The translations under genes and the position numbers were made by a program. Shown here in pieces: positions 1-18,935 of a DNA stretch of 36,458 bases. The notes under the pieces were generated by a model, which was not told where the DNA came from, did not search any database, and worked only from the letters and a program-made list of their open reading frames with translations. The stretch is from an uncultured Clostridia bacterium (GTDB taxonomy: Bacteria; Bacillota; Clostridia; Lachnospirales; Lachnospiraceae): the NCBI GenBank assembly GCA_946629525.1, contig CAMOXU010000016.1, positions 1 to 36,458 of the forward strand, in the 5' to 3' direction. Within the stretch, counting starts at the first letter, position 1. The number at the start of each line of letters is the position of its first letter.

Positions 1-23
1 CCGTTTGAATGTTCACACAATTT

Positions 24-60
24 CCATGGAGCACAACGTTTCGCAATCGCCTGTTCAAAG
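24..60 (+). repeat. GTTTCGCAA-type intergenic element, copy 1
   Basis: The stretch beginning CCATGGAGCACAACG and continuing through GTTTCGCAA (38-46) to CGCCTG closely matches the element found twice upstream of hypC (6019-6100) and, more loosely, one upstream of the sirtuin gene (14941-15000). Here only the half nearest the gene is visible, because the window edge is close and no TTGCGAAAC partner is seen. It lies just upstream of the first nitrogenase-like gene, so it could be a leader element or operator. Its function is unknown. Confidence 0.5.
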
Positions 61-83: not shown

Positions 84-1379
84 ATGGAACCTTTTTATCT
101 GACAGCGGAGGAATTCGCCCGCCGCGGGATCTCGGATTTCCCGAAGGAAGAGCTGCCGTCCTCCGCACTCATATACAGCTCGCCGGCGACCCTCTCCTAT
201 AATTCGCCCGGAGCCAACGGCTACGGAGTAAAGAGGGCCGGACTGGCCATTCCGGAGTCGGTCATGCTGCTCATCGCCCCCGGATGCTGCGGGAGGAACA
301 GTACGATCCTTTCCCGGGTCAGCGGGTACAGTGAAAGAATGTTCTATCTTCTGATGGATGAGACGGATCTTGTGACGGGCAGACACCTGACCAAAATTCC
401 GCAGGCGGTCCGGGAGATCGTCGAGGTGCCGGAAGTGAGGCCGAAAGTCGTCGTGCTCTGCATTACCTGTGTGGATGCACTGCTCGGTACGGATCTTGTC
501 CGGGTCGCAAAGAAGGCGGAGCGGGAGACCGGCGTGCGCGTTGTCGCAAGCTATATGTACGCGCTCATGAGGGAGGGGACGAAGCCTCCGATGACGGCGA
601 TCCGACAGAGCGTCTACTCGCTTCTTGAAAAGCGTAAGAAGGATCCGCACGCGGTCAATCTGCTCGGGCAGTTCGCCCCTTACGACGATGACTGCGAGCT
701 CTATCCGCTCTTTCGGAAAGCGGGGCTCACGAAGATCCGGGAGATCGGCCGGATGAAGACGCTCGACGAATATATGGAGATGGGCGAGGCCAATTTCAAC
801 CTGGTGCTGAATCCCGAAGCCCGCTATGCCGCGGAGGATCTTATGGAGCGTCTCGGGATGCCCTATATAGAGATGGGGCGTTTCTACGATCCCGACCGGA
901 TCGCCCGGCAGTACAGCCTCCTCGGAGGGGCACTGGGAGTCCGCTTCCAGGATGCTTCGTACAGGGAAGAGGCCGTGCGCGCGCTCCTTGCGTTCGCGGA
1001 ACACCATCCGGGCCTTACTTTTGCCGTCGGGCAGAGCATCAATGCGAATCCGTTCGAGCTTTCCGAGATGCTGCTGAAATACGGATTTAAAGTGAAGAGA
1101 ATATTCGCAAATGCGGCGGAGTCCGATCTGCCTTTCATTTCCCGGATCGCGGAAAAGAGCCCGGAGACGAGGCTCTATACCAGCATCTCGCCGACGATGC
1201 TGAATTACCGGATGGAGGGGGGCGTGGATGTCGCGCTCGGAAAGGATGCCGCCTGGTATTATCCGGATGCGTGCGCGGTGCCGTTCATGTCGGATGTGCA
1301 GCCGTTCGGTTACACAGGACTTATGCGGCTTCTGCGCGAGATCGACAGAGAAATCACTGCGAAGGAGAAAAATTCGTGA
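84..1379 (+). CDS. Nitrogenase component 1-type protein, subunit A (NifD/NifK superfamily)
   Basis: This 431-residue protein appears to belong to the nitrogenase component 1 superfamily (NifD/K/E/N, BchN/B, CfbD and relatives), whose members hold metal clusters between paired subunits. Visible signs are APGCCGRNS (Cys68/Cys69), the pattern MDETDLVTGRHLTKI (about 91-105), which resembles the T-D-x-x-x-G-G-x-x-K-L stretch after the first cluster cysteine in NifD-like proteins, and VVLCITCVDALLGTDL (Cys126, Cys129), which matches the second cysteine loop before the 'IGDD' turn. It is shorter than NifD (about 480 residues). An AGGAG site lies 7 bases before the ATG. The stop codon overlaps the GTG start of subunit B, so the two are translationally coupled and probably form a complex. 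The substrate is unknown. It is not a bona fide nitrogenase: no NifH, NifE/N or NifB is present here. Superfamily call is moderately sure; function is not assigned. Confidence 0.75.
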   Translation: MEPFYLTAEEFARRGISDFPKEELPSSALIYSSPATLSYNSPGANGYGVKRAGLAIPESVMLLIAPGCCGRNSTILSRVSGYSERMFYLLMDETDLVTGRHLTKIPQAVREIVEVPEVRPKVVVLCITCVDALLGTDLVRVAKKAERETGVRVVASYMYALMREGTKPPMTAIRQSVYSLLEKRKKDPHAVNLLGQFAPYDDDCELYPLFRKAGLTKIREIGRMKTLDEYMEMGEANFNLVLNPEARYAAEDLMERLGMPYIEMGRFYDPDRIARQYSLLGGALGVRFQDASYREEAVRALLAFAEHHPGLTFAVGQSINANPFELSEMLLKYGFKVKRIFANAAESDLPFISRIAEKSPETRLYTSISPTMLNYRMEGGVDVALGKDAAWYYPDACAVPFMSDVQPFGYTGLMRLLREIDREITAKEKNS

Positions 1380-2452
1380 AGGGACTGATGAAATATCTGT
1401 CACCTTTCGCGCCCGATATATCGGGCGCCTGTGAGGTGCTTTTTAAGATGGGCGGGCTCATTGTGATCATAGACGCGGGCGGCTGCACCGGAAATGTCTG
1501 CGGGTTCGACGAACCCCGCTGGAGCAGTGAGCGGAGCGCGATCTTCTCGGCAGGACTGCGCGATCTGGATGCGATCCTCGGCCGCGACGAACAGATGATG
1601 AAGAAGATCGGGGATGTGCTCCGCGTCATGCGCGGCGAGGAGGGCGGGGGAGCGAATTTTCTGGCTCTCGTGGGAACGCCGGTCCCTTCCGTCATCGCTA
1701 CAGACTACAGAGCGCTCCGCCGGATGGGGATGAACCGGTTCGGGATTCCGACCGTGACGGTGGAGACGACCGGGATGGACCTGTACGACAGGGGGCAGGA
1801 GAAGGCATATCTTGCACTGCTCAACGAATATATGGAAGAAGTTCAGGGCTCGGGCAGAGACAAGGCTGCCGGGAACACGGACAACGGGTTCCTGGGCATC
1901 CTCGGAGCGACTCCGATGGACCTTCTGTCCTCGGACTCCGTCGCTTCCGTGGGAGAGCGCGCAGGCCGCTGCGGGGGTCCTTCCGTGCGGATCTTCGGCG
2001 AGAGGGTCGAAGACTTCCGCGATGCCGCGTCTTTCCATGAAAATATTGTCGTATCCCCGTCGGGAATTGCCGCCGCCGAGAGAATCCGGGAGACGGCAGG
2101 GGTACCCTATCGGGTCTTCTACCCGCTTCCGGCCGGATTTTCGTCGATGCTTACGGGAGACCTGTCCGGAAAGAAGGTGCTGATCGTACACCAGGCAGTT
2201 CTTGCGCTGACGCTTCGGGAGGAGCTCATTTCAGCGTATCCCGATGCCGTGCTCGATACGGCGACATTCTTCATGCCGTACGGAGACTGCAGACATCTCT
2301 CCGAGGAGGATGACTTTATTGAACTGGTACGTGAAGGAAGCTACGATCTCATCATAGCGGATCCTCTTCTCCGGCGGGCGTGCCGGGGATATGCGGGAGA
2401 ATTTATTGAGCTGCCGCATTTTGCCGTCTCGGGAAATGCGTCGGCGGGGTGA
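1376..2452 (+). CDS. Nitrogenase component 1-type protein, subunit B
   Basis: The start is taken as the GTG at 1376, which overlaps the previous stop (GTGA) and has AAGGAG 8 bases upstream. This gives 358 residues. The N-terminal DAGGCTGNVCGFDEPRW (Cys37, Cys42), followed by IFSAGLRDLDAILGRDEQMM, resembles the first cysteine loop and the following 'S-x-x-x-x-E-x-D-x-x-x-G' stretch of component 1 proteins. Unlike subunit A, the second loop (LALVGTPVPSVIATD, about 106-120) has no cysteine, so the two subunits would bind a cluster asymmetrically. The C-terminal half has Rossmann-like strands (for example KKVLIVHQAVLA and YDLIIADPLLRRAC). A cofactor scaffold or reductase role together with subunit A is an inference from the fold, the coupling and the hyp neighbours. 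It could also be a maturase like NifE/N. Confidence 0.7.
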   Translation: MKGLMKYLSPFAPDISGACEVLFKMGGLIVIIDAGGCTGNVCGFDEPRWSSERSAIFSAGLRDLDAILGRDEQMMKKIGDVLRVMRGEEGGGANFLALVGTPVPSVIATDYRALRRMGMNRFGIPTVTVETTGMDLYDRGQEKAYLALLNEYMEEVQGSGRDKAAGNTDNGFLGILGATPMDLLSSDSVASVGERAGRCGGPSVRIFGERVEDFRDAASFHENIVVSPSGIAAAERIRETAGVPYRVFYPLPAGFSSMLTGDLSGKKVLIVHQAVLALTLREELISAYPDAVLDTATFFMPYGDCRHLSEEDDFIELVREGSYDLIIADPLLRRACRGYAGEFIELPHFAVSGNASAG

Positions 2453-2483
2453 GGTTTACAAAAATATGAAAGGGGCAGCAACT

Positions 2484-4952
2484 ATGGAAAGAAAGACAAA
2501 AGCCCCGGGAGAAAGCATGACAGGACCGGATCAGAGAATACGGCTCAGAATAAGGGTGTACGGGATCGTTCAGGGGATCGGCTTCAGGCCGTTCGTGGCC
2601 AGGCTCGCGGATGCGTATAAGATCAGCGGGAGCGTCTGCAACAAGGGATCCTTCGTGGAAATATTTGCGGAGGGCAGCCGGGAATCGGTGTTTTCATTTT
2701 ACAAAGCGCTGCCTGAACGCGCACCGGCGGTCTCGGCGATCGTCCGGATCGATCAGAAGGAGCTTCCCCCCGAGGGGGCGGAGCGGTTCCTGATCATAAA
2801 GAGCAGCAGGGAGGCGGGGGAGATCTTCGTCTCACCGGATCTTGCGATCTGCCCGGCATGCCGGGAGGAGCTCTTTGACCCTTCGAATAAGAGGTACCTT
2901 CACCCGTTCATAAACTGTACGGACTGCGGTCCGCGGCTCACGATCCTGGACTCGATGCCCTATGACCGCGTGCGGACGTCGATGGGCGTCTTTCCCATGT
3001 GTCCGGACTGTGAGAGGGAATACACGGATCCCGGGACCCGCCGGTTCCACGCACAGCCGGTCTGCTGCAATGACTGCGGGCCGAGGGTCTATATACCCGG
3101 AAGGGAGGAGAGCGGTCCTGACGCAATCCGCCTGGTGCGGAAGGTGATCCGGGAGGGAGGGATCGCCGCGATCAAGGGAATCGGCGGCTTTCACCTTTGC
3201 TGTGACGCGGCGTCCGACAGGGCGGTCGCCCGGCTGCGCGCTCTCAAGAACCGGCCTGCAAAGCCTTTCGCGGTCATGATGCGGGATATCGGGACAGTGG
3301 AGCGGGAGTGCGAGATCCCGGACGGCTTCAGAGGATTTCTTGAAGGCGTCCAGAAGCCGATCCTTATACTGAATCGGAAGGAGGGCGGACACATAAGTCC
3401 TCTGGTCGCGCCGGATAATCCTACGGTCGGCGTCATGCTCCCGTATGCTCCCATCCAGATGCTTCTTTTCTCGTATCCGGAGGAGGATTCCGCCGGTCGG
3501 GAAGCAGGAGATCCGGGTGCGGAGCGGCCGGAGATGACGGACGTCTTTGTCATGACGAGCGGCAATCCTTCCGGAGCGCCTATCTGTAAAGACGACGACG
3601 AGGCGGTCCGTTATCTTTCGCCGATGTGCGACGTGATCCTCTCGAACGACCGGACGATCCGCCTGCGTGCGGATGATTCGGTCATGCAGGCCGTCCGGGG
3701 AAAGCCCTATATGATCCGCAGATCCCGAGGCTATGCGCCGCTTCCGGTGGTCCTTCCGGAGGGCACGAAGGGAGAACTCCTGGCTGTCGGTGGAGAACTG
3801 AAGAACACTTTTGCTCTCGCAAAGGACGAGCTTGTATACCCGTCCGCCTATATCGGCGATCTGGCGGATCTGAGGTCCGTCAATGCACTGTCCGCGGCGG
3901 TGGAACGGATGGAGGAGCTTCTTGAGACGAGGCCGAATGCGGTCGTCTGCGACCTGCACCCGCGCTACAACTCGAGCGCGTTCGCGGAGGAACTTTCCCT
4001 GCCGGTGATCCGGGTCCAGCATCATTACGCGCACATCCTGTCCTGCATGGCGGAGAACCGGTGGACCGAGCCGTGCATCGGGATCTCATTTGACGGGACA
4101 GGCTACGGCACGGACGGGACGGTCTGGGGCGGAGAATTTCTGATCGCGTGGCCGGATCATTTTATCCGCGCGGGATCTCTCGCTCCTTTTCTGCAGTCGG
4201 GAGGAGATCTGGCCTCAAAGGAGGGGTGGCGGATCGCCGTTTCGCTCCTTGCGGACGCGGCGGAGTCGGAGGAGGCTTTTGCGTCAGCGGTCAAGTCTCT
4301 CGGACTGTGCTCGGAGCAGGAGTTGAAAATGCAGACCTTCATGAGGCGGAACGGGGTCAACACCGTGCGGTCCACCTCCGCGGGGAGGCTTTTCGACGCG
4401 GTATCGGCGATGCTGGGGATCCGAAGGGCTTCGACCTTTGAGGGGGAAGCCTCGATGGCCCTGGAATTTGCCGCAGAAAAGTGGCTGGCACAGCATGAAG
4501 GGAAGGATCTCGGGATCTTCGGAATTCCGGACCCGGTGCTCAGGATCGTTGATACGGAAGAAGAGATTCCTTCTGAGACCGGCGGCCAGACCGGATGGTC
4601 GAAACCGCGCTTTGCGGCGGAGATCGCCCCGATCATAAAGTACATCTTAAGGGAACTCGAAGGAGAGGGGGATAAGACAGAGACTGCCGGCAGATGCGCG
4701 TATGTGTTCCACGAGTTTCTCGCGCAGGGAATTCTCATGGGAGCAAACTATATCCGGGAGCAGACCGGGATCAGCACGGCGGCGCTCTCGGGCGGGTGTT
4801 TTCAGAACCTGCTCCTTCTTGAGCGGACGAGAGATCTTCTCGAGGAGGCGGGATTTACGGTGCTCGTGCATTCACTGATTCCCGCAAATGACGGCGGCAT
4901 CGCTCTCGGACAGGCTTACTACGGGATGAGCGTGCTGCAGCGCAGAAATTGA
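2484..4952 (+). CDS. hypF: Carbamoyltransferase HypF
   Basis: HypF uses carbamoyl phosphate and ATP to carbamoylate the C-terminal cysteine of HypE, the first step in making the cyanide ligands of the [NiFe]-hydrogenase Fe(CN)2CO unit. All expected domains are present in the 822-residue product. They are an acylphosphatase-like domain (VYGIVQGIGFRPFV, about 25-38), two zinc-finger-like units (Cys123/126, 145/148, 173/176, 195/198, with INCTDCGPR and CCNDCGPR), a YrdC-like domain (AIKGIGGFHLCCDA) and a Kae1/carbamoyltransferase domain (HHYAHILSCMAEN and, near the end, SGGCFQNLLL). The chosen ATG has AGGGG 8 bases upstream; an in-frame ATG at 2466 is a possible alternative. It follows the nitrogenase-like pair by about 30 bases and precedes a membrane protein gene. 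Length is close to the usual 750-800, and no key residue seems missing. Confidence 0.95.
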   Translation: MERKTKAPGESMTGPDQRIRLRIRVYGIVQGIGFRPFVARLADAYKISGSVCNKGSFVEIFAEGSRESVFSFYKALPERAPAVSAIVRIDQKELPPEGAERFLIIKSSREAGEIFVSPDLAICPACREELFDPSNKRYLHPFINCTDCGPRLTILDSMPYDRVRTSMGVFPMCPDCEREYTDPGTRRFHAQPVCCNDCGPRVYIPGREESGPDAIRLVRKVIREGGIAAIKGIGGFHLCCDAASDRAVARLRALKNRPAKPFAVMMRDIGTVERECEIPDGFRGFLEGVQKPILILNRKEGGHISPLVAPDNPTVGVMLPYAPIQMLLFSYPEEDSAGREAGDPGAERPEMTDVFVMTSGNPSGAPICKDDDEAVRYLSPMCDVILSNDRTIRLRADDSVMQAVRGKPYMIRRSRGYAPLPVVLPEGTKGELLAVGGELKNTFALAKDELVYPSAYIGDLADLRSVNALSAAVERMEELLETRPNAVVCDLHPRYNSSAFAEELSLPVIRVQHHYAHILSCMAENRWTEPCIGISFDGTGYGTDGTVWGGEFLIAWPDHFIRAGSLAPFLQSGGDLASKEGWRIAVSLLADAAESEEAFASAVKSLGLCSEQELKMQTFMRRNGVNTVRSTSAGRLFDAVSAMLGIRRASTFEGEASMALEFAAEKWLAQHEGKDLGIFGIPDPVLRIVDTEEEIPSETGGQTGWSKPRFAAEIAPIIKYILRELEGEGDKTETAGRCAYVFHEFLAQGILMGANYIREQTGISTAALSGGCFQNLLLLERTRDLLEEAGFTVLVHSLIPANDGGIALGQAYYGMSVLQRRN

Positions 4953-5010
4953 ACCGATGAAGGCAGCAGGACGGATCGGGATGACCCGCCCTGACGGAGA
5001 GAAGAGATTT

Positions 5011-6000
5011 ATGACAGTCGGAGAGAAGAGAAAGAAATTCTGGGATGATGTGAATCTGGAGATGAGGAGACACAGGGGAACATTTATCGTCTTCTTTATC
5101 CTGAGAATTCTGGTCGTGGTCTCCATGATCCGCCAGTTCATGCTCGGAAACTATGAGAGTGTGATGCTCTGCATCCTTACGCTGCTCCTCTTTATCGTAC
5201 CGATGATTGTGCAGGTGAGACTGAACGTCGATTTCCCGCAGGTGCTCGAGGTGATCATCCTGCTCTTCATCTATGCGGCGGAGATCCTGGGGGAGGTCAA
5301 CAGCTACTACACGGCGATCCCCTACTGGGATCTTATGCTGCATACCCTGAACGGGTTCCTGTGCGGGGCGATCGGCTTTTCGCTTGCCCTCTGTCTGGAC
5401 AAGGACGAGAACGTCTTCTTCCGGATGTCTCCCCTCCTGATCGTGATCGTGTCCTTCTGCTTTTCGATGACAATCGGCGTTCTGTGGGAATTCTTTGAGT
5501 ATACGATGGATCGCGTATTTCTCATGGATATGCAGAAGGACACCGTCGTACACACCGTGAGCAGCGTGGTCCTCAATCCGATGAAGGTCCAGAGGCCCTG
5601 GATCATACGGAATATCAGCGAGATGTCGATCAACGGAACGGAGATGGGCGTCGGCGGGTACGTGGATCTCGGCCTCATCGACACGATGGAGGATTTGTTC
5701 GTCAATTTTATCGGAGCCCTCACGTTCTCGGTCATCGGCTGGCTGGCGCTGCACGGGAAAAAGAGGGAGAGGATGATTGCGATGGGGCTGGTCGTTGTTC
5801 CCAAAATGCCGGAGCAGGAGCTTTTGGCCTATCGAAAGAGGCTTGCAGACACGGAGATGCTGAGGATGCCGGATCGCTCCGGAGGGTCCGGGAGAACAGG
5901 GACGGATGCATCGGGGGAGAATGAGTCTCCTGCGGAGACAGAGAAGAGAAAGGAAGGTGCTCCCGGGAGCGCCTGCGGCACGGAGGAAAAGAAATCCTGA
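5011..6000 (+). CDS. Multi-pass membrane protein, YjdF/DUF2238-like
   Basis: This 329-residue protein has roughly six hydrophobic segments (about 24-42, 49-68, 77-95, 108-128, 139-158 and one near 245-265) and a hydrophilic, Gly/Ser/Glu-rich C-terminal tail of about 60 residues. The stretches YWDLMLHTLNGFLCGAIGF and IGVLWEFFEYTMD resemble the conserved D-x-x-x-H and W-E-x-x-E motifs of the YjdF/DUF2238 inner-membrane family, whose function is not established. The acidic and histidine residues within the membrane (Asp107, His111, Glu160, Glu163) could bind metal or protons, but this is speculation. The start at 5011 has GGAGAG upstream; in-frame ATGs at 4957 and 4981 are alternatives, the first only 4 bases after hypF. 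Its place between hypF and hypC suggests co-expression with hydrogenase maturation proteins, which is unusual for this family. Confidence 0.75.
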   Translation: MTVGEKRKKFWDDVNLEMRRHRGTFIVFFILRILVVVSMIRQFMLGNYESVMLCILTLLLFIVPMIVQVRLNVDFPQVLEVIILLFIYAAEILGEVNSYYTAIPYWDLMLHTLNGFLCGAIGFSLALCLDKDENVFFRMSPLLIVIVSFCFSMTIGVLWEFFEYTMDRVFLMDMQKDTVVHTVSSVVLNPMKVQRPWIIRNISEMSINGTEMGVGGYVDLGLIDTMEDLFVNFIGALTFSVIGWLALHGKKRERMIAMGLVVVPKMPEQELLAYRKRLADTEMLRMPDRSGGSGRTGTDASGENESPAETEKRKEGAPGSACGTEEKKS

Positions 6001-6018
6001 GGAGACCGCAAAGGAGAA

Positions 6019-6110
6019 TTGCAGTACGGCGTTTCGCAAACGCCTGAAAAATAACAATAAGTAATTGCGAAACCATGGAGTACAGCGTTTCGCAAATACC
6101 TGTGAAATAT
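6019..6110 (+). repeat. Double copy of GTTTCGCAA element with alternative hairpins before hypC
   Basis: Two direct copies of GTTTCGCAA (6031-6039 and 6087-6095) flank one inverted copy TTGCGAAAC (6065-6073). The middle arm can pair perfectly with either side (9 base pairs; loops of 25 or 13 bases), so two hairpins would exclude each other. The second copy's flanks (CCATGGAGTACAG before, ACCTG after) match the element at 24-60. It fills most of the 132-base gap between the membrane-protein gene and hypC. The arrangement is plainly visible; a role as switch, operator or dispersed repeat is inference. Confidence 0.6.
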
Positions 6111-6132
6111 CAAAGAGAAAAGGAGAAAGACC

Positions 6133-6345
6133 ATGTGTGTTGGATTACCTGCTAAAATCGTGAAAATGAAGAACGGCACCGCCGTCGTCGACGCTACGGG
6201 GGCCCGCCGGGAGATCTCAACGGAGCTTCTCTCGGATCTCGAGCCGGGAGACTATGTGATGGTACACGCCGGGATCGCCATCGCGAAGATCACGGCGGAC
6301 GATGAGACCGAATCGGAAGAGCTTCTGGATATGCTTGAGGGGTGA
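6133..6345 (+). CDS. hypC: Hydrogenase maturation chaperone HypC
   Basis: HypC/HupF-family chaperones form a complex with HypD on which the Fe(CN)2CO group is built, then carry it to the hydrogenase large-subunit precursor. The 70-residue product begins MCVGLPAKIV, giving the essential Cys2 and the short beta-barrel pattern, and continues with VVDATGARREIS and GDYVMVHAGIAIAKI, where the conserved G-D-Y-V-x-V-H-x-G motif is intact. AGGAG lies 8 bases before the ATG. The stop codon sits inside the GAGGGGTGA ribosome binding site for hypD, 3 bases before its ATG, so the two are tightly coupled. The residues after Cys2 (VGLPAKI) differ slightly from the commoner LAIPGKI, which may reflect an unusual client. 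Confidence 0.95.
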   Translation: MCVGLPAKIVKMKNGTAVVDATGARREISTELLSDLEPGDYVMVHAGIAIAKITADDETESEELLDMLEG

Positions 6346-6348
6346 AAC

Positions 6349-7413
6349 ATGAATCAGAATACGGAAAAAAAAGCGCGCCGGAGCGCTCTTGACATTGTGC
6401 GCGGATACGACGGACCGCCGATCCGCATCATGGAGGTGTGCGGGACGCATACCCATGCGATCTTCGAGCAGGGGATTCGCGGGATCCTTCCTGAGAACAT
6501 TCGCCTGATTTCAGGTCCCGGGTGTCCGGTCTGTGTGACGGAGACGGGCTTCATCGACGAGGCCGTCCTGCTGGCACTCGAAAAAAATGCCGTGATTGCG
6601 ACCTTCGGAGACCTTGTGCGGGTCCCGGGAACGGAGATGAATCTAGCCGATGTAAGGGCGAAGGGAGGCTCTGTGAAGATCGTCTACTCTCCCCTTGACG
6701 CGGTCGAACTCGCGAAGGAGAACCCGGACAGGCAGATCGTCTTCCTGTCCGTCGGCTTTGAGACGACGGTACCGGCGTCCTGTCTGGCTGTGAAGAAGGC
6801 CGGAGAGATGGGCCTTACGAACTTTACCCTGCTGACGGCAAACAAGACCATGGACGAAGCCTACCGTGCGCTCAGGGGGAGTGCGGACGCATTTCTCTAC
6901 CCGGGTCACGTGAGCGCGATCACGGGGATGAATGTTTACCGAAAGCTCCGGGAGGAGGGGATTTCGGGTGTCGTCTGCGGATTTACGGCTTCTGAGATCC
7001 TGTCTGCGATTGCAATCATCATCCTTCGCCTTGAAAAGGGCGCTGCATTTGCGGAAAATGCCTACCCGAGAGTCGTCGCGGAAGAGGGGACCCCGATCGG
7101 AAGAGAACTCATCTCGGAGGTCATGGAACCCTGCGACGCCGTCTGGCGCGGAATCGGAACGATCCCCGGCTCGGGACTTCGTCTCCGTCAGCCGGAATAC
7201 GCGGAGTTCGATGCAAGGCTCAAATTCGGCATTCCGGAAATGCACGGAAGACCCAACCCGGCCTGCCGGTGCGGGGACGTCCTCATGGGCAGGATCAGGC
7301 CGAAGGAATGTCCGATCTTCGGGAAGGTCTGTACACCGGAGCATCCGGTCGGTGCCTGCATGGTGTCCTCCGAAGGGACATGCTCGGCTTACTATAAATA
7401 CGAAATGATTTGA
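6349..7413 (+). CDS. hypD: Hydrogenase maturation factor HypD
   Basis: HypD is the iron-sulfur protein that, with HypC, receives cyanide from HypE and assembles the Fe(CN)2CO moiety in the cytoplasm. The 354-residue length is typical. The family motifs are all present: IMEVCGTHTH (Cys31 and the following histidines), ISGPGCPVCVT (Cys59, Cys62), FGDLVRVPG, VGFETT, YPGHVSAITG, and the C-terminal [4Fe-4S] region from NPACRCGDVLMG to CTPEHPVGACMVSSEGTC. A GAGGGGTGA ribosome binding site overlaps the end of hypC. The intact cysteines imply a working enzyme. The next gene, hypE, starts 128 bases later, after a repeat. Confidence 0.97.
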   Translation: MNQNTEKKARRSALDIVRGYDGPPIRIMEVCGTHTHAIFEQGIRGILPENIRLISGPGCPVCVTETGFIDEAVLLALEKNAVIATFGDLVRVPGTEMNLADVRAKGGSVKIVYSPLDAVELAKENPDRQIVFLSVGFETTVPASCLAVKKAGEMGLTNFTLLTANKTMDEAYRALRGSADAFLYPGHVSAITGMNVYRKLREEGISGVVCGFTASEILSAIAIIILRLEKGAAFAENAYPRVVAEEGTPIGRELISEVMEPCDAVWRGIGTIPGSGLRLRQPEYAEFDARLKFGIPEMHGRPNPACRCGDVLMGRIRPKECPIFGKVCTPEHPVGACMVSSEGTCSAYYKYEMI

Positions 7414-7415
7414 TC

Positions 7416-7476
7416 GCAGCCGCATAGTTTGGAAGATGCTTCGCACTCTTCGCGGCGCGGCAGGAACGCCGATACG
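7416..7476 (+). repeat. 61-bp intergenic repeat, copy 1 (hypD-hypE gap)
   Basis: By hand alignment without gaps, this 61-base stretch matches the stretch at 8611-8671 at about 45 of 61 positions. The best-kept blocks are GCAGCCG, TGCTTCG and GGCAGGAACG. It lies immediately after hypD and before the hypE ribosome binding site. The second copy lies just after hypE, so the pair flanks that gene. Function is unknown; a dispersed extragenic repeat family is the simplest reading. Confidence 0.45.
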
Positions 7477-7541
7477 TTCCTGATCTTCTGTCACAGCAAA
7501 TTTTTTGTGAGCTGCCCGAAGGCGGCTCCGGAAAGGAAACC

Positions 7542-8546
7542 ATGGATAATATGATCACACTGGCCCACGGCTCGGGAGGAAAGAAGACCTCCGAGCTCAT
7601 CGGCGGGCTCTTCAAAAAGTACTTTGACAACGAATATCTGACGGCGGATGACGCGGCAGTTCTTCCGGCCCCGCAGGGCAGGATCGCCATGTCCACAGAC
7701 GGATTCATCGTCTCGCCCTATGAATTCCCGGGCGGGAATGTGGGCAAGCTCAGCATCTGCGGAACCGTCAATGACCTTGCCTGCATGGGAGCCAGACCGC
7801 TTTACCTCACATGCGCTTTTGTCGTGGAAGAAGGCTTCCCGGTCGCAAAGCTCGAGAAGCTGGCCGCTTCCATGGCGGAGACCGCGAAGGAGGCGGGCGT
7901 CAGGATCGTCGCGGGAGATACCAAGGTCGCGGGAAAAGGACAGGTCGACGGTGTCTTCATCACGACGACGGCGGTCGGGGAGATCCTTCCGGGAGCGGAG
8001 CTCTCCGGGGCATATGCGAAGCCGGGTGACAAGATCCTCGTGACGGGCGACGTGGGCCGCCACGGCGCGGCGATCCTGCTGGCGAGAGATGCGTTCGGCA
8101 TAGAAGCTGATGTGACCTCAGACTGCGCTCCTCTCTGGGGGACGGTCCGCTCGATGCTTGCGGAGACGACGGATATCCATGTGATCCGCGATGCGACGAG
8201 AGGCGGCGTGGGGACGGTACTCTATGAGATCGCCTCCGAGAGCAATGTCGGGATCCGGCTTGACCGTTCCGAGGTCCCGGTGGATCCCGCGGTGTCCGGT
8301 GTCTGCGGAATGCTGGGACTTGAGCCGCTCTATCTGGCCTGCGAGGGCCGGATGGTCGTCTTTGCACCGGCGGATCAGGCGGAAGCCCTCCTTGAAGTTC
8401 TGAGAAAAGGAAAGTATTCGGAGAATGCCGCCATTATCGGCGAGGTCACCGAGACCATGCCCGGCCGGGTGGTCGTGAGGACGCCGATCGGTGCGGAGAC
8501 GCTGCTCCCGCCTCCGGGAGGAGAGCTCCTGCCGAGGATCTGCTGA
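7542..8546 (+). CDS. hypE: Carbamoyl-dehydratase HypE
   Basis: HypE belongs to the PurM/AIR-synthase-like ATPases. Its C-terminal cysteine is carbamoylated by HypF and then dehydrated with ATP to a thiocyanate, the cyanide donor for HypC-HypD. The 334-residue protein starts with ITLAHGSGGKKTSELI, a typical HypE N-terminus with the glycine-rich segment, and contains DDAAVL, ATRGGVGTVLYEI and the exact C-terminal signature PRIC, with Cys334 as the last residue. Start is supported by GGAAAGGA 8 bases upstream. It is the last gene of the hyp group. No hydrogenase structural gene follows within the window, since the next gene is galactokinase. A weak hairpin (CGGATCC/GGATCCG, 8566-8589) without a T-run lies just downstream. 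Confidence 0.97.
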   Translation: MDNMITLAHGSGGKKTSELIGGLFKKYFDNEYLTADDAAVLPAPQGRIAMSTDGFIVSPYEFPGGNVGKLSICGTVNDLACMGARPLYLTCAFVVEEGFPVAKLEKLAASMAETAKEAGVRIVAGDTKVAGKGQVDGVFITTTAVGEILPGAELSGAYAKPGDKILVTGDVGRHGAAILLARDAFGIEADVTSDCAPLWGTVRSMLAETTDIHVIRDATRGGVGTVLYEIASESNVGIRLDRSEVPVDPAVSGVCGMLGLEPLYLACEGRMVVFAPADQAEALLEVLRKGKYSENAAIIGEVTETMPGRVVVRTPIGAETLLPPPGGELLPRIC

Positions 8547-15815: not shown

Positions 15816-15836
15816 GGCTTGCTTTGCAAGCCTTTT
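15816..15836 (+). terminator. Rho-independent terminator after the sirtuin gene
   Basis: GGCTTGC, loop TTT, GCAAGCC, then TTTT: a perfect 7-bp stem with a T-run. It overlaps an in-frame ATG at 15819, which argues against that start for the following protease gene. Confidence 0.85.
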
Positions 15837-15911
15837 GATAAGATCTGTCGTGAGATGAATGCGCAGAATTGCCGTGACTTTTCACACCCTGCACTGCATG
15901 GAGGTCAATGT

Positions 15912-18900
15912 ATGTTAAAAAGAATTTCCGCGGCTCTGCTGGCTGCTCTTCTCGGGCTTTCTCTTCCGGCTGCCGTATATGCGACTGCCGAAGACGCCGG
16001 TTTTGAAGACGCCGAAGAAGAGTACGAATACTATATGGAGGAGACAGGTGAGGATACCGAGATCATCCCGGTCAGAGGCTTTGAGGCCTGGAGCGAGGAG
16101 GAGGCGGACGAAATCACCGAGGGCCTTGTCGGCAGCGGGGAGCCTCTTCCGGAATCCTACAGAGCGCCTGCGATCTCGGGAATCGGGAATCAGGGGTCGA
16201 CCGGCGTGTGCTGGGCATTTTCAAGTCTCTCCTGCGCGGAGAATAATCTTATGCTCCGGGGCCTTACGGACGCAGTGAACTTCTCGGAGACGCAGCTCGT
16301 ATACGGCGTGTTCCACGGAGATGAGGATACCTATACCAGAGGAAGCGACAACAATAACTGGCATGTGTCCAAGGGAAATTACATGATGGCTGCCGCCGCG
16401 CTGGCGAACGGGTACGGAGCTGCCGATGAAGATACGTATCCCTTTGAGAACCATGATCTGGGAAATGAAGCCCGGTCAGACGACATCGCCCACATCGACC
16501 GCGTTCTCTTCCTGACAGACTGGCCGTCAGACTATTCTCTCTGGAAGACGGAGACCTGGAACTCCGTCACAGACCAGATCAAGAGCGCGGTATACACGTA
16601 CGGAAGCGTCATGGCGACCTACTATTCGGGCTCGAGGACCTATAATCAGGATCTGAATTCGAATTACAGCGGCTGGGAGGAGGGCGCTTCGAAGCCGACA
16701 GCCGATCACGCGATCACGATCGTCGGCTGGGACGATACGAAGGAGACGCAGGATTCGGAGAACCCCGGAGCATACCTCGTCATGAACAGCTGGGGAGCGG
16801 ACTGGGGCGATGCGGGCCTCTTCTGGATCGCGTACAATGACGCGTCGCTCTTAAATCCCGCTGTCTTCATTATGGAAGAAAATGCACCGGGAACCCTTCG
16901 GGATACGGATGTGTTCAGCCACACGGAGACCGGCTGGACCGGAATGTCCCTTAAGAGTGCGAAGACAGCCATTCATTCGATGAATGTCTTTCATACGGAA
17001 CATGCCGAACTGATCGACAGGATCGGCTTTTATACCAATGAGCCTGCGACGTACACGGCGGAGCTTGTCGTCGGCATGACCGAAAGTGAGCAAGGGCCGG
17101 ACCCGGAATCCGGAACGGTCGCGGCGACTGCCACGGGCTATGTTGACTGCGGCGGTTTCTACAAGGCGGACCTGTCCGAGGCGGTGACGATCGGCTCCGG
17201 ACAGATCTTTGGTGTGCGCGTGATCATCGATACAGCCAACGGTCATAAGGTGTTTTTCGAAGGACCGGACAAAAATCTGACGGGGATCTATCGAACAACG
17301 ACCGTGAGTCTGGGCGAATCCTTCTACTGGTCGGGCTCGAAATATACAGACTGCGGAATAGATGAAGATCCTTATACGAGACGAAAAAATGCATGCATCT
17401 ATGCCTACGGGAATCCGACCGACGAGCCGGAGCCCACGCCAGAACCGACGGAGGAACCGACTCCTGAACCGACAGAGGAACCGACTCCGGAACCTACACA
17501 GGAACCAACGCCCGAACCCACACAGGAGCCGACGCCTGAACCCACACAGGAGCCGACACCCGAACCCACGCCGGAGCCGGTGGGGGACATGACCGGTGTC
17601 TATACTCTTCGGGTCAGGATCGGCGGACAGAACAGAGTGCTCGATATTTCGGGCGGTTCGACGGCGAGCGGAGCCAACGCCCAGATCTACACATCGAACG
17701 GATCTGCCGCCCAGCGCTTCCTTCTGGATTATGCGGGCGACGGATATTACCGGATCGTGAATCTGCAGTCGGGCAAGGTGCTCGATGTGGCAGGCGGAAG
17801 CAAGGCGAACGGAACCAACATCTGGCAGTATGTCTGGAACGGGTCGGACGCCCAGCTCTGGTCCCTCGAGCCGAACGGGGACGGCTATTCGATCGTATCG
17901 AAGGCGTCCGGGAAGGTGCTCGATGTGGCAGGCGGATCGAACAGGGCGGGGACGAATGTCCAGCTCTATGAATCCAACAGGACGGCTGCCCAGACCTGGT
18001 ACTTCGACGCTGCGGCGGAGGATCGGCTGATCACCCGTCTTTCTGACTGTGCGTCCGCCATCGAATCCGGTAAAACCTATGTGCTGGTACCGAAGCAGAA
18101 TCCGCTCGTTGCGGTCGATGTCTACAACGGCAATATGGTCGACTGGACGCCGCTCTGGCTGTACCGCCAGAACGGGACGGAAGCCCAGAAGTTCACGCTC
18201 ACCCAGAATGACGACGGAAGCTATACATTCGTCAATCAGAAGTGTGAGCTCTCGATCGACGTGTACAACAACTCTACGGCGAACGGCGCGCAGGTCCAGC
18301 TCTATACCTGGAACGGCACGACAGCCCAGAAATGGCTCTTCAACGAGAACAGCGACGGCACTTACACGATCGTGAACAAAAACTCCGGCAAGGTCATCAC
18401 CTGCCCGAACTCTCCGGCTGAGCCGATGAACTATATCAAAATGTACGCAGGAACCAGTTCCGATACCCAGAAATTCTATCTGGTGGAGACGACAACCGAG
18501 GAGCGCCTGTACCCCGGGACCTATTATCTGGCTGCGTCCGGGAATCCGGACTACTGCATCGACATTTACAATGCGGGCAAGGCGGACGGAACCAATGCAT
18601 GGCTCTACCGCGGGAACCAGACAGCGGCCCAGCAGTTCCGTTTCGTGTACAGCGGCGACGGCTCCTACAGGATCGTGAACGTGAATTCCGGCAAAGTGCT
18701 CACCATCGCGGGAAATTCCTCCGCGGTCGGGCGGAATGTGCAGCTTGAGACCTGGAAAGGCGAGTTCGGCCAGCGCTGGAAGATCCGGCAGAATGACGGA
18801 ACAATCACGCTCGTGAGCATGCATGGCACTGTCATGGACATCTACGGCGGCAGCGTGAAGAACACGACCAACATCTGGACGTATTCGTCGAACGGGACGG

Positions 18901-18935
18901 CTGCCCAGAAGTGGATCCCGATCGAGGCCGGCTGA
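15912..18935 (+). CDS. Secreted papain-like (C1A) cysteine protease with ricin-type lectin repeats
   Basis: This 1007-residue extracellular protein begins with a clear signal peptide (MLKRISAALLAALLGLSLPA, cleavage near AYA-like VYA, 21-25). GGAGGT lies 6 bases before the chosen ATG. The peptidase domain contains NQGSTGVCWAFSS with catalytic Cys100, ADHAITIVGWDD with His266, and MNSWGADWG with Asn292. A domain of about 150 residues (roughly 330-490) follows; it resembles the beta-sandwich 'lectin-like' domain often attached to bacterial C1 proteases. A linker of PTPEPTEE/PTPEPTQE repeats (about 503-556) leads to three beta-trefoil ricin B-like domains (about 560-1005). Each trefoil has three lobes marked by variants of KVLDVAGG, IDVYNN or VMDIYGG and by QxW-like 'AAQKW'. 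It is probably a secreted protease that binds glycans. No LPxTG-type anchor is present, and no pro-region is clear beyond the acidic segment 26-80. Confidence 0.92.
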   Translation: MLKRISAALLAALLGLSLPAAVYATAEDAGFEDAEEEYEYYMEETGEDTEIIPVRGFEAWSEEEADEITEGLVGSGEPLPESYRAPAISGIGNQGSTGVCWAFSSLSCAENNLMLRGLTDAVNFSETQLVYGVFHGDEDTYTRGSDNNNWHVSKGNYMMAAAALANGYGAADEDTYPFENHDLGNEARSDDIAHIDRVLFLTDWPSDYSLWKTETWNSVTDQIKSAVYTYGSVMATYYSGSRTYNQDLNSNYSGWEEGASKPTADHAITIVGWDDTKETQDSENPGAYLVMNSWGADWGDAGLFWIAYNDASLLNPAVFIMEENAPGTLRDTDVFSHTETGWTGMSLKSAKTAIHSMNVFHTEHAELIDRIGFYTNEPATYTAELVVGMTESEQGPDPESGTVAATATGYVDCGGFYKADLSEAVTIGSGQIFGVRVIIDTANGHKVFFEGPDKNLTGIYRTTTVSLGESFYWSGSKYTDCGIDEDPYTRRKNACIYAYGNPTDEPEPTPEPTEEPTPEPTEEPTPEPTQEPTPEPTQEPTPEPTQEPTPEPTPEPVGDMTGVYTLRVRIGGQNRVLDISGGSTASGANAQIYTSNGSAAQRFLLDYAGDGYYRIVNLQSGKVLDVAGGSKANGTNIWQYVWNGSDAQLWSLEPNGDGYSIVSKASGKVLDVAGGSNRAGTNVQLYESNRTAAQTWYFDAAAEDRLITRLSDCASAIESGKTYVLVPKQNPLVAVDVYNGNMVDWTPLWLYRQNGTEAQKFTLTQNDDGSYTFVNQKCELSIDVYNNSTANGAQVQLYTWNGTTAQKWLFNENSDGTYTIVNKNSGKVITCPNSPAEPMNYIKMYAGTSSDTQKFYLVETTTEERLYPGTYYLAASGNPDYCIDIYNAGKADGTNAWLYRGNQTAAQQFRFVYSGDGSYRIVNVNSGKVLTIAGNSSAVGRNVQLETWKGEFGQRWKIRQNDGTITLVSMHGTVMDIYGGSVKNTTNIWTYSSNGTAAQKWIPIEAG

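Follow-up and report, generated by a model that had tools for sequence, protein, structure and literature searches.

HydG is considered to supply the carbon monoxide (CO) and cyanide (CN) of [FeFe]-hydrogenases, in which the diiron site of the H-cluster carries two CN and three CO ligands. Together with HydE and HydF it forms the described maturation system of these enzymes, as the HypABCDEF proteins do for [NiFe]-hydrogenases. We analysed a stretch of 36,458 nucleotides (the window) from an uncultured Lachnospiraceae bacterium, contig CAMOXU010000016.1, in which two genes for nitrogenase-like subunits, A and B, run directly into hypF, hypC, hypD and hypE. The original prediction for this DNA had suggested that a nitrogenase-like scaffold acts there on Hyp-derived iron. 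The prediction is partly upheld: the pair is joined to the Hyp genes in a linkage that is widely conserved and suggests such a scaffold, but the likely destination had been missed. The cluster is quite likely a HydG-replacing route to the H-cluster of [FeFe]-hydrogenase. HydE, a second nitrogenase-like pair (D1 and K1), a NifH-like protein (H) and, in some relatives, HydF belong to it; together with the lack of HydG in genomes that do have [FeFe]-hydrogenase domains, they point to the H-cluster.

According to the accessible text of a survey of acetogens (PMC9431212), HydE and HydF occur without a standard HydG in 5 of 8 acetogens, and HypCDEF without HypA/HypB likewise in 5 of 8. Clostridium ljungdahlii, C. 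ragsdalei and others have HydE, HydF and HypCDEF but neither a standard HydG nor HypA/HypB; C. carboxidivorans has no standard HydG and two HypC/D/E sets. The same text offers a divergent HydG or the use of free CO/CN, leaves the HydG and HypA/B gaps unexplained, and links them neither to one another nor to nitrogenase-like genes. In our scan of GTDB contigs C. ljungdahlii, C. ragsdalei and C. carboxidivorans all carry the cluster. Titles and abstract openings of full-text literature, where subscription journals are mostly uncovered, gave no account of the cluster or of a HydG-replacing pathway. The parts belong to known families and the proposed pathway is new within the literature searched.

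HydG, HydE and Hyp proteins in genomes carrying A

We examined 397 genomes of the same family, evenly drawn from a larger group. At E 1e-5, 71 of them have a match to A, and orthologues were counted in 31: the window's own genome and 30 others at 46–63% identity, the remainder being at most 33% identical. Among these A-positive genomes, 28 have a completeness of 90% or more with contamination of 5% or less, and one (G313) has a partial A at a contig end.

HydG exceeded its cut-off in none of the 31 A-positive genomes. For contrast, we took from the 190 A-negative genomes with HydE the first 80 in list order with completeness of at least 96%; HydG is present in 76 of these, with best hits of 658–962 bits. 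The split is also seen within genera: in g59, G368 has A and no HydG and G058 has HydG and no A, and in g104 the same holds for G395 and G103, respectively. HydG was found in none of the A loci fetched. The best HydG-profile matches of the A-positive genomes score about 200 bits, and 11 of the 31 have nothing better than 1e-27. We rejected a divergent HydG among these matches, since all six checked are ThiH (NCBIfam 490–531 bits, cut-off 380); matches of this type also occur beside true HydG in A-negative genomes.

HydE, by comparison, is present in 31/31 A-positive genomes versus 190/366 others. In a HydE tree with 44 rows from A-positive genomes and 20 from HydG-bearing ones the labels intermingle, with 12 changes of which at least 4 are forced by well-supported branches, a pattern to be expected of a HydE that can work with both sources. 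The [FeFe]-hydrogenase domain (PF02906) is likewise found in all 31 A-positive genomes, at E < 1e-80 in 25; the other six (G000, G382, G383, G303, G083 and G312) have only lower-scoring matches (1e-52 to 1e-65). Controls were positive in 6/6 HydG-bearing genomes and in all four HydE-positive, A-negative genomes that lack HydG.

The Hyp proteins follow A. HypD is over its cut-off in 79 of the 397 genomes and the [NiFe]-hydrogenase large subunit (PF00374) in 56. All 31 A-positive genomes have HypD, yet PF00374 is present in 6 and absent from 25, and among genomes without PF00374, HypD is found in 25/25 A-positive versus 1/316 A-negative ones. The six A-positive genomes with a [NiFe]-hydrogenase possess two HypD genes each. 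A HypD tree of 80 of 113 sequences, with collection rows thinned by half, cleanly separates 60 cluster rows from 19 rows of [NiFe] genomes (support 100/99). The latter come from genomes that have PF00374 (in G383 the two genes lie on different contigs), and two of them, from G067 and G298, branch apart from the other [NiFe] rows. The lone genome with HypD and neither A nor PF00374 (G051) has a HypD that falls in the [NiFe] clade. For HypA, 8 of the 31 genomes score above the cut-off, namely the six with a [NiFe]-hydrogenase and 2 of the 25 without. From the co-occurrence of HypD and PF00374, the two HypDs in six genomes and the HypA pattern, the Hyp proteins are tied to A and not to a nickel hydrogenase. 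A [NiFe]-hydrogenase as the client was rejected: none (PF00374) is detectable in the window's own genome, which is 82% complete, or in the 25 A-positive genomes without this domain.

The gene cluster and its nitrogenase-like proteins

Profile searches of the window proteins recovered all genes named by the original prediction, on the plus strand:

84..1379, plus strand: A, alpha-type nitrogenase-like (component 1) subunit, 431 amino acids (PF00148, E 8.7e-36, 124 bits)
1376..2452, plus strand: B, beta-type nitrogenase-like subunit (PF00148, 6.9e-8, 32 bits, cut-off 28.6; AlphaFold model)
2484..4952, plus strand: hypF, carbamoyltransferase, cyanide precursor (TIGR00143, 732 bits, cut-off 466)
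4957..6000, plus strand: open reading frame X, 347 amino acids, no family; hydrophobic as judged by eye
6133..6345, plus strand: hypC (PF01455, 2e-23)
6349..7413, plus strand: hypD, of the cluster-specific clade (TIGR00075, 383 bits, above the NCBIfam cut-off)
7542..8546, plus strand: hypE, C-terminal cysteine present (TIGR02124, 419 bits, above the NCBIfam cut-off)

HypC, HypD, HypE and HypF belong to their families by both profiles and catalytic residues. Among relatives, most finger cysteines of HypF are kept in 94/94 and C198 in 90/94, Cys2 and His45 of HypC in 96/96, the nine cysteines of HypD in 92/92 and the C-terminal cysteine of HypE in 89/90. An Fe(CN)2CO-type unit is therefore the expected product. 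X, between hypF and hypC, matched no Pfam or NCBIfam model, and among the best 80 loci of the GTDB scan its tblastn matches are confined to two close relatives, L086 and L087. X was thus rejected as a component and is probably a passenger outside the conserved system.

The window is contig C16 from its first base, in a genome of 163 contigs. Another contig, C14, ends with HydE (TIGR03956, 554 bits, cut-off 255), D1 and K1 (PF00148, 52 and 102 bits, cut-off 28.6) and a NifH-like protein. In L086 and L087, whose A proteins are 94% and 93% identical to that of the window, HydE-D1-K1-H and A onward form one continuous stretch, in which the last part of C14 and the first part of C16 map side by side (5413/5408 in L086, 9993/9988 in L087). 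The reconstructed local gene set is therefore hydE-D1-K1-H-A-B-hypF-X-hypC-hypD-hypE, which supplies the upstream NifH-like reductase for which the original prediction had advised looking. Short repeats with a gcgaaac...gtttcgc core occur at the ends of C14 and C16 and also between X and hypC (window 1-60 and 6020-6110; L004 1-180), and related stretches of 40–64 bp recur between genes in L086 and L087; the repeats probably caused the assembly break.

The neighbourhood is not unique to this genome, answering a comparison that the original prediction had called for. The GTDB contig scan gave 544 stretches encoding A relatives, of which the best 80 form our collection. The labels of these 80 include Lachnospiraceae, C. 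ljungdahlii, C. carboxidivorans, C. ragsdalei, C. drakei, Mogibacterium, Megasphaera, Treponema, Atopobiaceae, Coriobacteriaceae and a Synergistaceae bin; many are metagenome-assembled genomes. Scored by presence rather than order, B, HypF, HypC, HypD and HypE are all found in 60/60 collection loci with at least 7.5 kb downstream of A and in 24/25 such loci of the same family, L065 being without HypE. A NifH-like gene lies directly upstream of A in 73/74 collection loci and 29/29 same-family loci with room for it. The two sets overlap, as illustrated by identical HypD rows (L038/L092 and L041/L124). The short contig L160 departs from the gene order: the second NifH-like gene and D1 come directly after A, B and hyp genes are missing, and no H lies just upstream. 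A plasmid collection yielded 8 records, the best from Treponema at 30% and the others mostly NifE.

The loci are also linked to H-cluster genes. HydE or HydF is found in 35/80 collection and 14/30 family A loci, and HydF in 21/80 and 10/30, respectively; in L060, L063 and L064 the reading frame between K1 and HydE is HydF (492–548 bits, cut-off 326). Loci with HydF or HydE carry both Bacillota and Actinomycetota labels. In L041 (genome G203) NuoE-like (hydC-like) and Nuo51-like (hydB-like) genes come after hypE on its strand, and beyond them, on that contig and strand, lies a PF02906 gene. In G091 about 5.5 kb separate hydC-hydB-hydA-like genes from the D1-K1 operon downstream of them.

A, B, D1 and K1 all score above the PF00148 gathering threshold and thus belong to the nitrogenase component 1 superfamily, where the original prediction had placed A and B. 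For B, an AlphaFold model (predicted local distance difference test, pLDDT, 84.7; predicted template modelling score, pTM, 0.88) matches chains of NifEN, DPOR and nitrogenase with a Foldseek probability of 1.00. Its start codon is probably GTG 1376, which overlaps the A stop, rather than the alternative ATG 1388, because orthologues begin MKGLRKYL. In a profile search of the PDB, NifE was the best relative of A (5.4e-16) and also the best match of B. Cysteines C69, C126 and C129 of A (window numbering) are invariant in 36 rows, as are C33 and C38 of B (numbered from ATG 1388) in 67 rows, and together they would suffice for an interface Fe-S cluster. In the PDB profile alignment A has no cysteine at the aligned NifE position that we take to be the cofactor-ligand site. 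Rows with stops or unsuitable length were dropped from the A and B sets (L095, L130, L131, L146, L158, L159, L162 and L163), and so was a combined alignment of A, B and fusion sequences, in which B rows fell on the A half.

A and B share one in-frame open frame in 6/80 collection loci, which supports an A-B heterodimer. The original prediction had proposed modelling the heterodimer; a model of an A-B fusion can be aligned with the NifEN fusion chain 9i0g over 898 columns. Its domain arrangement, however, does not superpose on NifEN (root-mean-square deviation 27) and its confidence is modest (pLDDT 75, pTM 0.72); we therefore claim no complex geometry.

A scores 64 bits against NCBIfam nifE (cut-off 505), so that it is not NifE proper, and B matched no NCBIfam model. 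In the phylogeny that had also been suggested, run against NifD, NifK and NifE of three genomes, the A/B-type proteins form separate clades. On these scores and clades a true nitrogenase was rejected. H is a member of the NifH/Fer4_NifH reductase family (PF00142, 287 bits), with P-loop residues K9 and K14 in 115/116 rows and the [4Fe-4S] cysteines C94 and C130 in 116/116; it falls below nifH proper (299 bits, cut-off 394) and CfbC (297 bits, cut-off 402). Loci L073-L077 are of another kind: a standalone nitrogenase-like H-D-K set, in separate clades, followed by a substrate-binding protein, a FecCD permease and an ABC ATPase. Elsewhere in the window, 15819-18935 encodes a 1038-amino-acid protein in which Pfam recognises a papain-family protease domain together with a lectin-like one, as well as several lectin repeats of the ricin-type beta-trefoil family.

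A possible pathway and its alternatives

In the pathway that we propose, carbamoyl phosphate would be turned into cyanide by HypF and HypE, and HypC-HypD would assemble an Fe(CN)2(CO)-type unit, which is their role in [NiFe]-hydrogenase maturation. The A-B heterodimer, powered by the NifH-like ATPase, would act with D1-K1 to take in this unit and remodel it reductively, shifting the CN:CO balance toward an Fe(CO)2(CN) synthon, the product of HydG. From the synthon, HydE and HydF would construct the diiron cluster, which HydF would deliver to the hydrogenase. A-B and D1-K1 may divide scaffold and reductase roles between them, like NifEN and NifDK. Two Hyp units would carry four CN and two CO, counts that differ from those of the H-cluster, so the ligand balance would have to change. 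An ATP-driven, low-potential nitrogenase-like reductase would be a plausible agent, by cyanide removal, CO production or a reduction of iron that allows exchange. The assignment of the cluster to a HydG-replacing pathway is well supported by comparative genomics, while the reaction of the nitrogenase-like complexes is one that we infer. We give this remodelling chemistry about even chances. The same balance applies to the wider idea that these complexes may convert HypCDEF-made Fe(CN)2CO into an H-cluster synthon, thereby joining the nitrogenase, [NiFe] and [FeFe] cofactor systems. If true, a widespread second route would explain how acetogens reported to lack HydG, and many gut and rumen bacteria, could have active hydrogenases, HypCDEF would gain a client other than [NiFe]-hydrogenase, nitrogenase-like proteins would gain a new type of reaction, and new parts would be at hand for making hydrogenases in other hosts.

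Several observations weigh against a HydG-replacing role. The Fisher p of 1.7e-23 for the HydG contrast ignores ancestry, and the comparison covers the window's family for HydG and the fetched loci for HydF. On the HydE tree the labels are more clustered than when shuffled (12 versus 17 changes, with bootstrap not settled). The window's own genome has a single PF02906 match, of the lower-scoring type (1.9e-52), and this type might be no ordinary catalytic hydrogenase. PF02906 was also found in 31 of 39 genomes with neither HydE nor A (20 at E < 1e-80), so its presence by itself cannot tell the groups apart, and maturation gene sets in the family are more varied than a simple rule. The 39 have no HydE at E 1e-60 and were hand-picked, not random; G003, G008 and G017 are examples of those with the domain. 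HypA is present in G000 and G243 despite the absence of a [NiFe]-hydrogenase. According to the accessible text of PMC9431212, C. drakei, C. scatologenes and C. autoethanogenum have HydG candidates recognised by motifs, and all surveyed acetogens except C. autoethanogenum have atypical candidates, radical SAM proteins of about 450 amino acids. C. drakei (L120) also has the cluster. These candidates count against a universal rule outside the tested family.

Within the family, four A-negative genomes with HydE have no HydG: G117, G134, G086 and G181. G117 has HydE-H-D1-K1-FecBCD-type importer-HydF, while in G134 H, D1, K1 and HydF stand together with genes of the importer (loci L223 and L224); both are without HypD and A-B. 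Their D1 and K1 nevertheless fall in the cluster clades (support 100/100 and 89/88), which is why D1-K1 may be the constant core and Hyp with A-B one supply branch. These operons are possibly a second HydG-less variant, in which D1-K1-H and HydF (with HydE in G117) would work with a precursor brought in or recovered by the importer. HydE of G086 has no recognised partner within 15.7 kb, and G086 and G181 stand as exceptions.

The cluster might instead replace HydG as a supplier of ligands: the nitrogenase-like complexes would reduce CO2 or other carbon to CO, HypF and HypE would give cyanide, and HydE and HydF would assemble the cluster, with no remodelling of an HypCD-bound Fe(CN)2CO. The genomic evidence is identical for this scheme and for remodelling, and nitrogenases and Fe proteins do reduce CO2 to CO. 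The accessible text of PMC9431212 also cites a weak activation when HydE and HydF act without HydG, with a twofold gain from free CO or CN. Nevertheless the iron-handling HypC and HypD are kept in 60/60 roomy collection loci, and their catalytic residues are conserved among relatives; this suggests a pre-built iron unit over free ligands and leaves the supplier scheme rather doubtful. It is unlikely that the nitrogenase-like and Hyp genes make the cofactor of some other enzyme, the exclusion of HydG and the HydE/HydF linkage being incidental. Standalone H-D-K clusters with an ABC importer and no Hyp genes do indicate other jobs in the superfamily, but the HydG counts (0/31 versus 76/80), the repeated switches on the HydE tree and the HydF/HydE genes in cluster loci of both Bacillota and Actinomycetota speak for a link to the H-cluster.

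The first scenario of PMC9431212, an unrecognised divergent HydG that is active while the cluster does something else, could draw on the atypical candidates named in its accessible text. We consider it very improbable in the A-positive genomes, where the best matches proved to be ThiH in every case checked, also occur beside true HydG, and in 11/31 genomes do not exceed 1e-27. HypCDEF are the usual maturases of [NiFe]-hydrogenase, and the hyp genes could in principle serve such an enzyme with nitrogenase-like neighbours by chance. The lack of PF00374 in the window's genome and in 25/31 A-positive genomes, the separate HypD clade and the two HypDs where both systems occur make this hardly credible.

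Comparison with known maturation and nitrogenase-like systems

DPOR, CfbCD and methylthio-alkane reductase share the fold and reductase plan of the cluster proteins, which however score below the NCBIfam cut-offs listed for them; to our knowledge none of these enzymes works with Hyp proteins, HydE or HydF. NifEN with NifH is similar in that NifE is the best match of A and B, the fusion model runs along 9i0g and a NifH-like partner lies upstream; it differs in the scores (64 against 505 bits for A, no NCBIfam model for B) and in the clades, which stand apart from Nif. Unlike HypABCDEF maturation of [NiFe]-hydrogenase, the system occurs without that enzyme in 25 of 31 genomes, with HypA in 8 and with a HypD clade of its own. 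HydE-HydF-HydG maturation shares with it HydE, in the same mixed tree, HydF in many cluster loci and an [FeFe]-hydrogenase domain in every A-positive genome. The cluster genomes differ in having no HydG (31/31) and Hyp plus nitrogenase-like proteins instead; the cluster system is therefore not the known HydEFG set.

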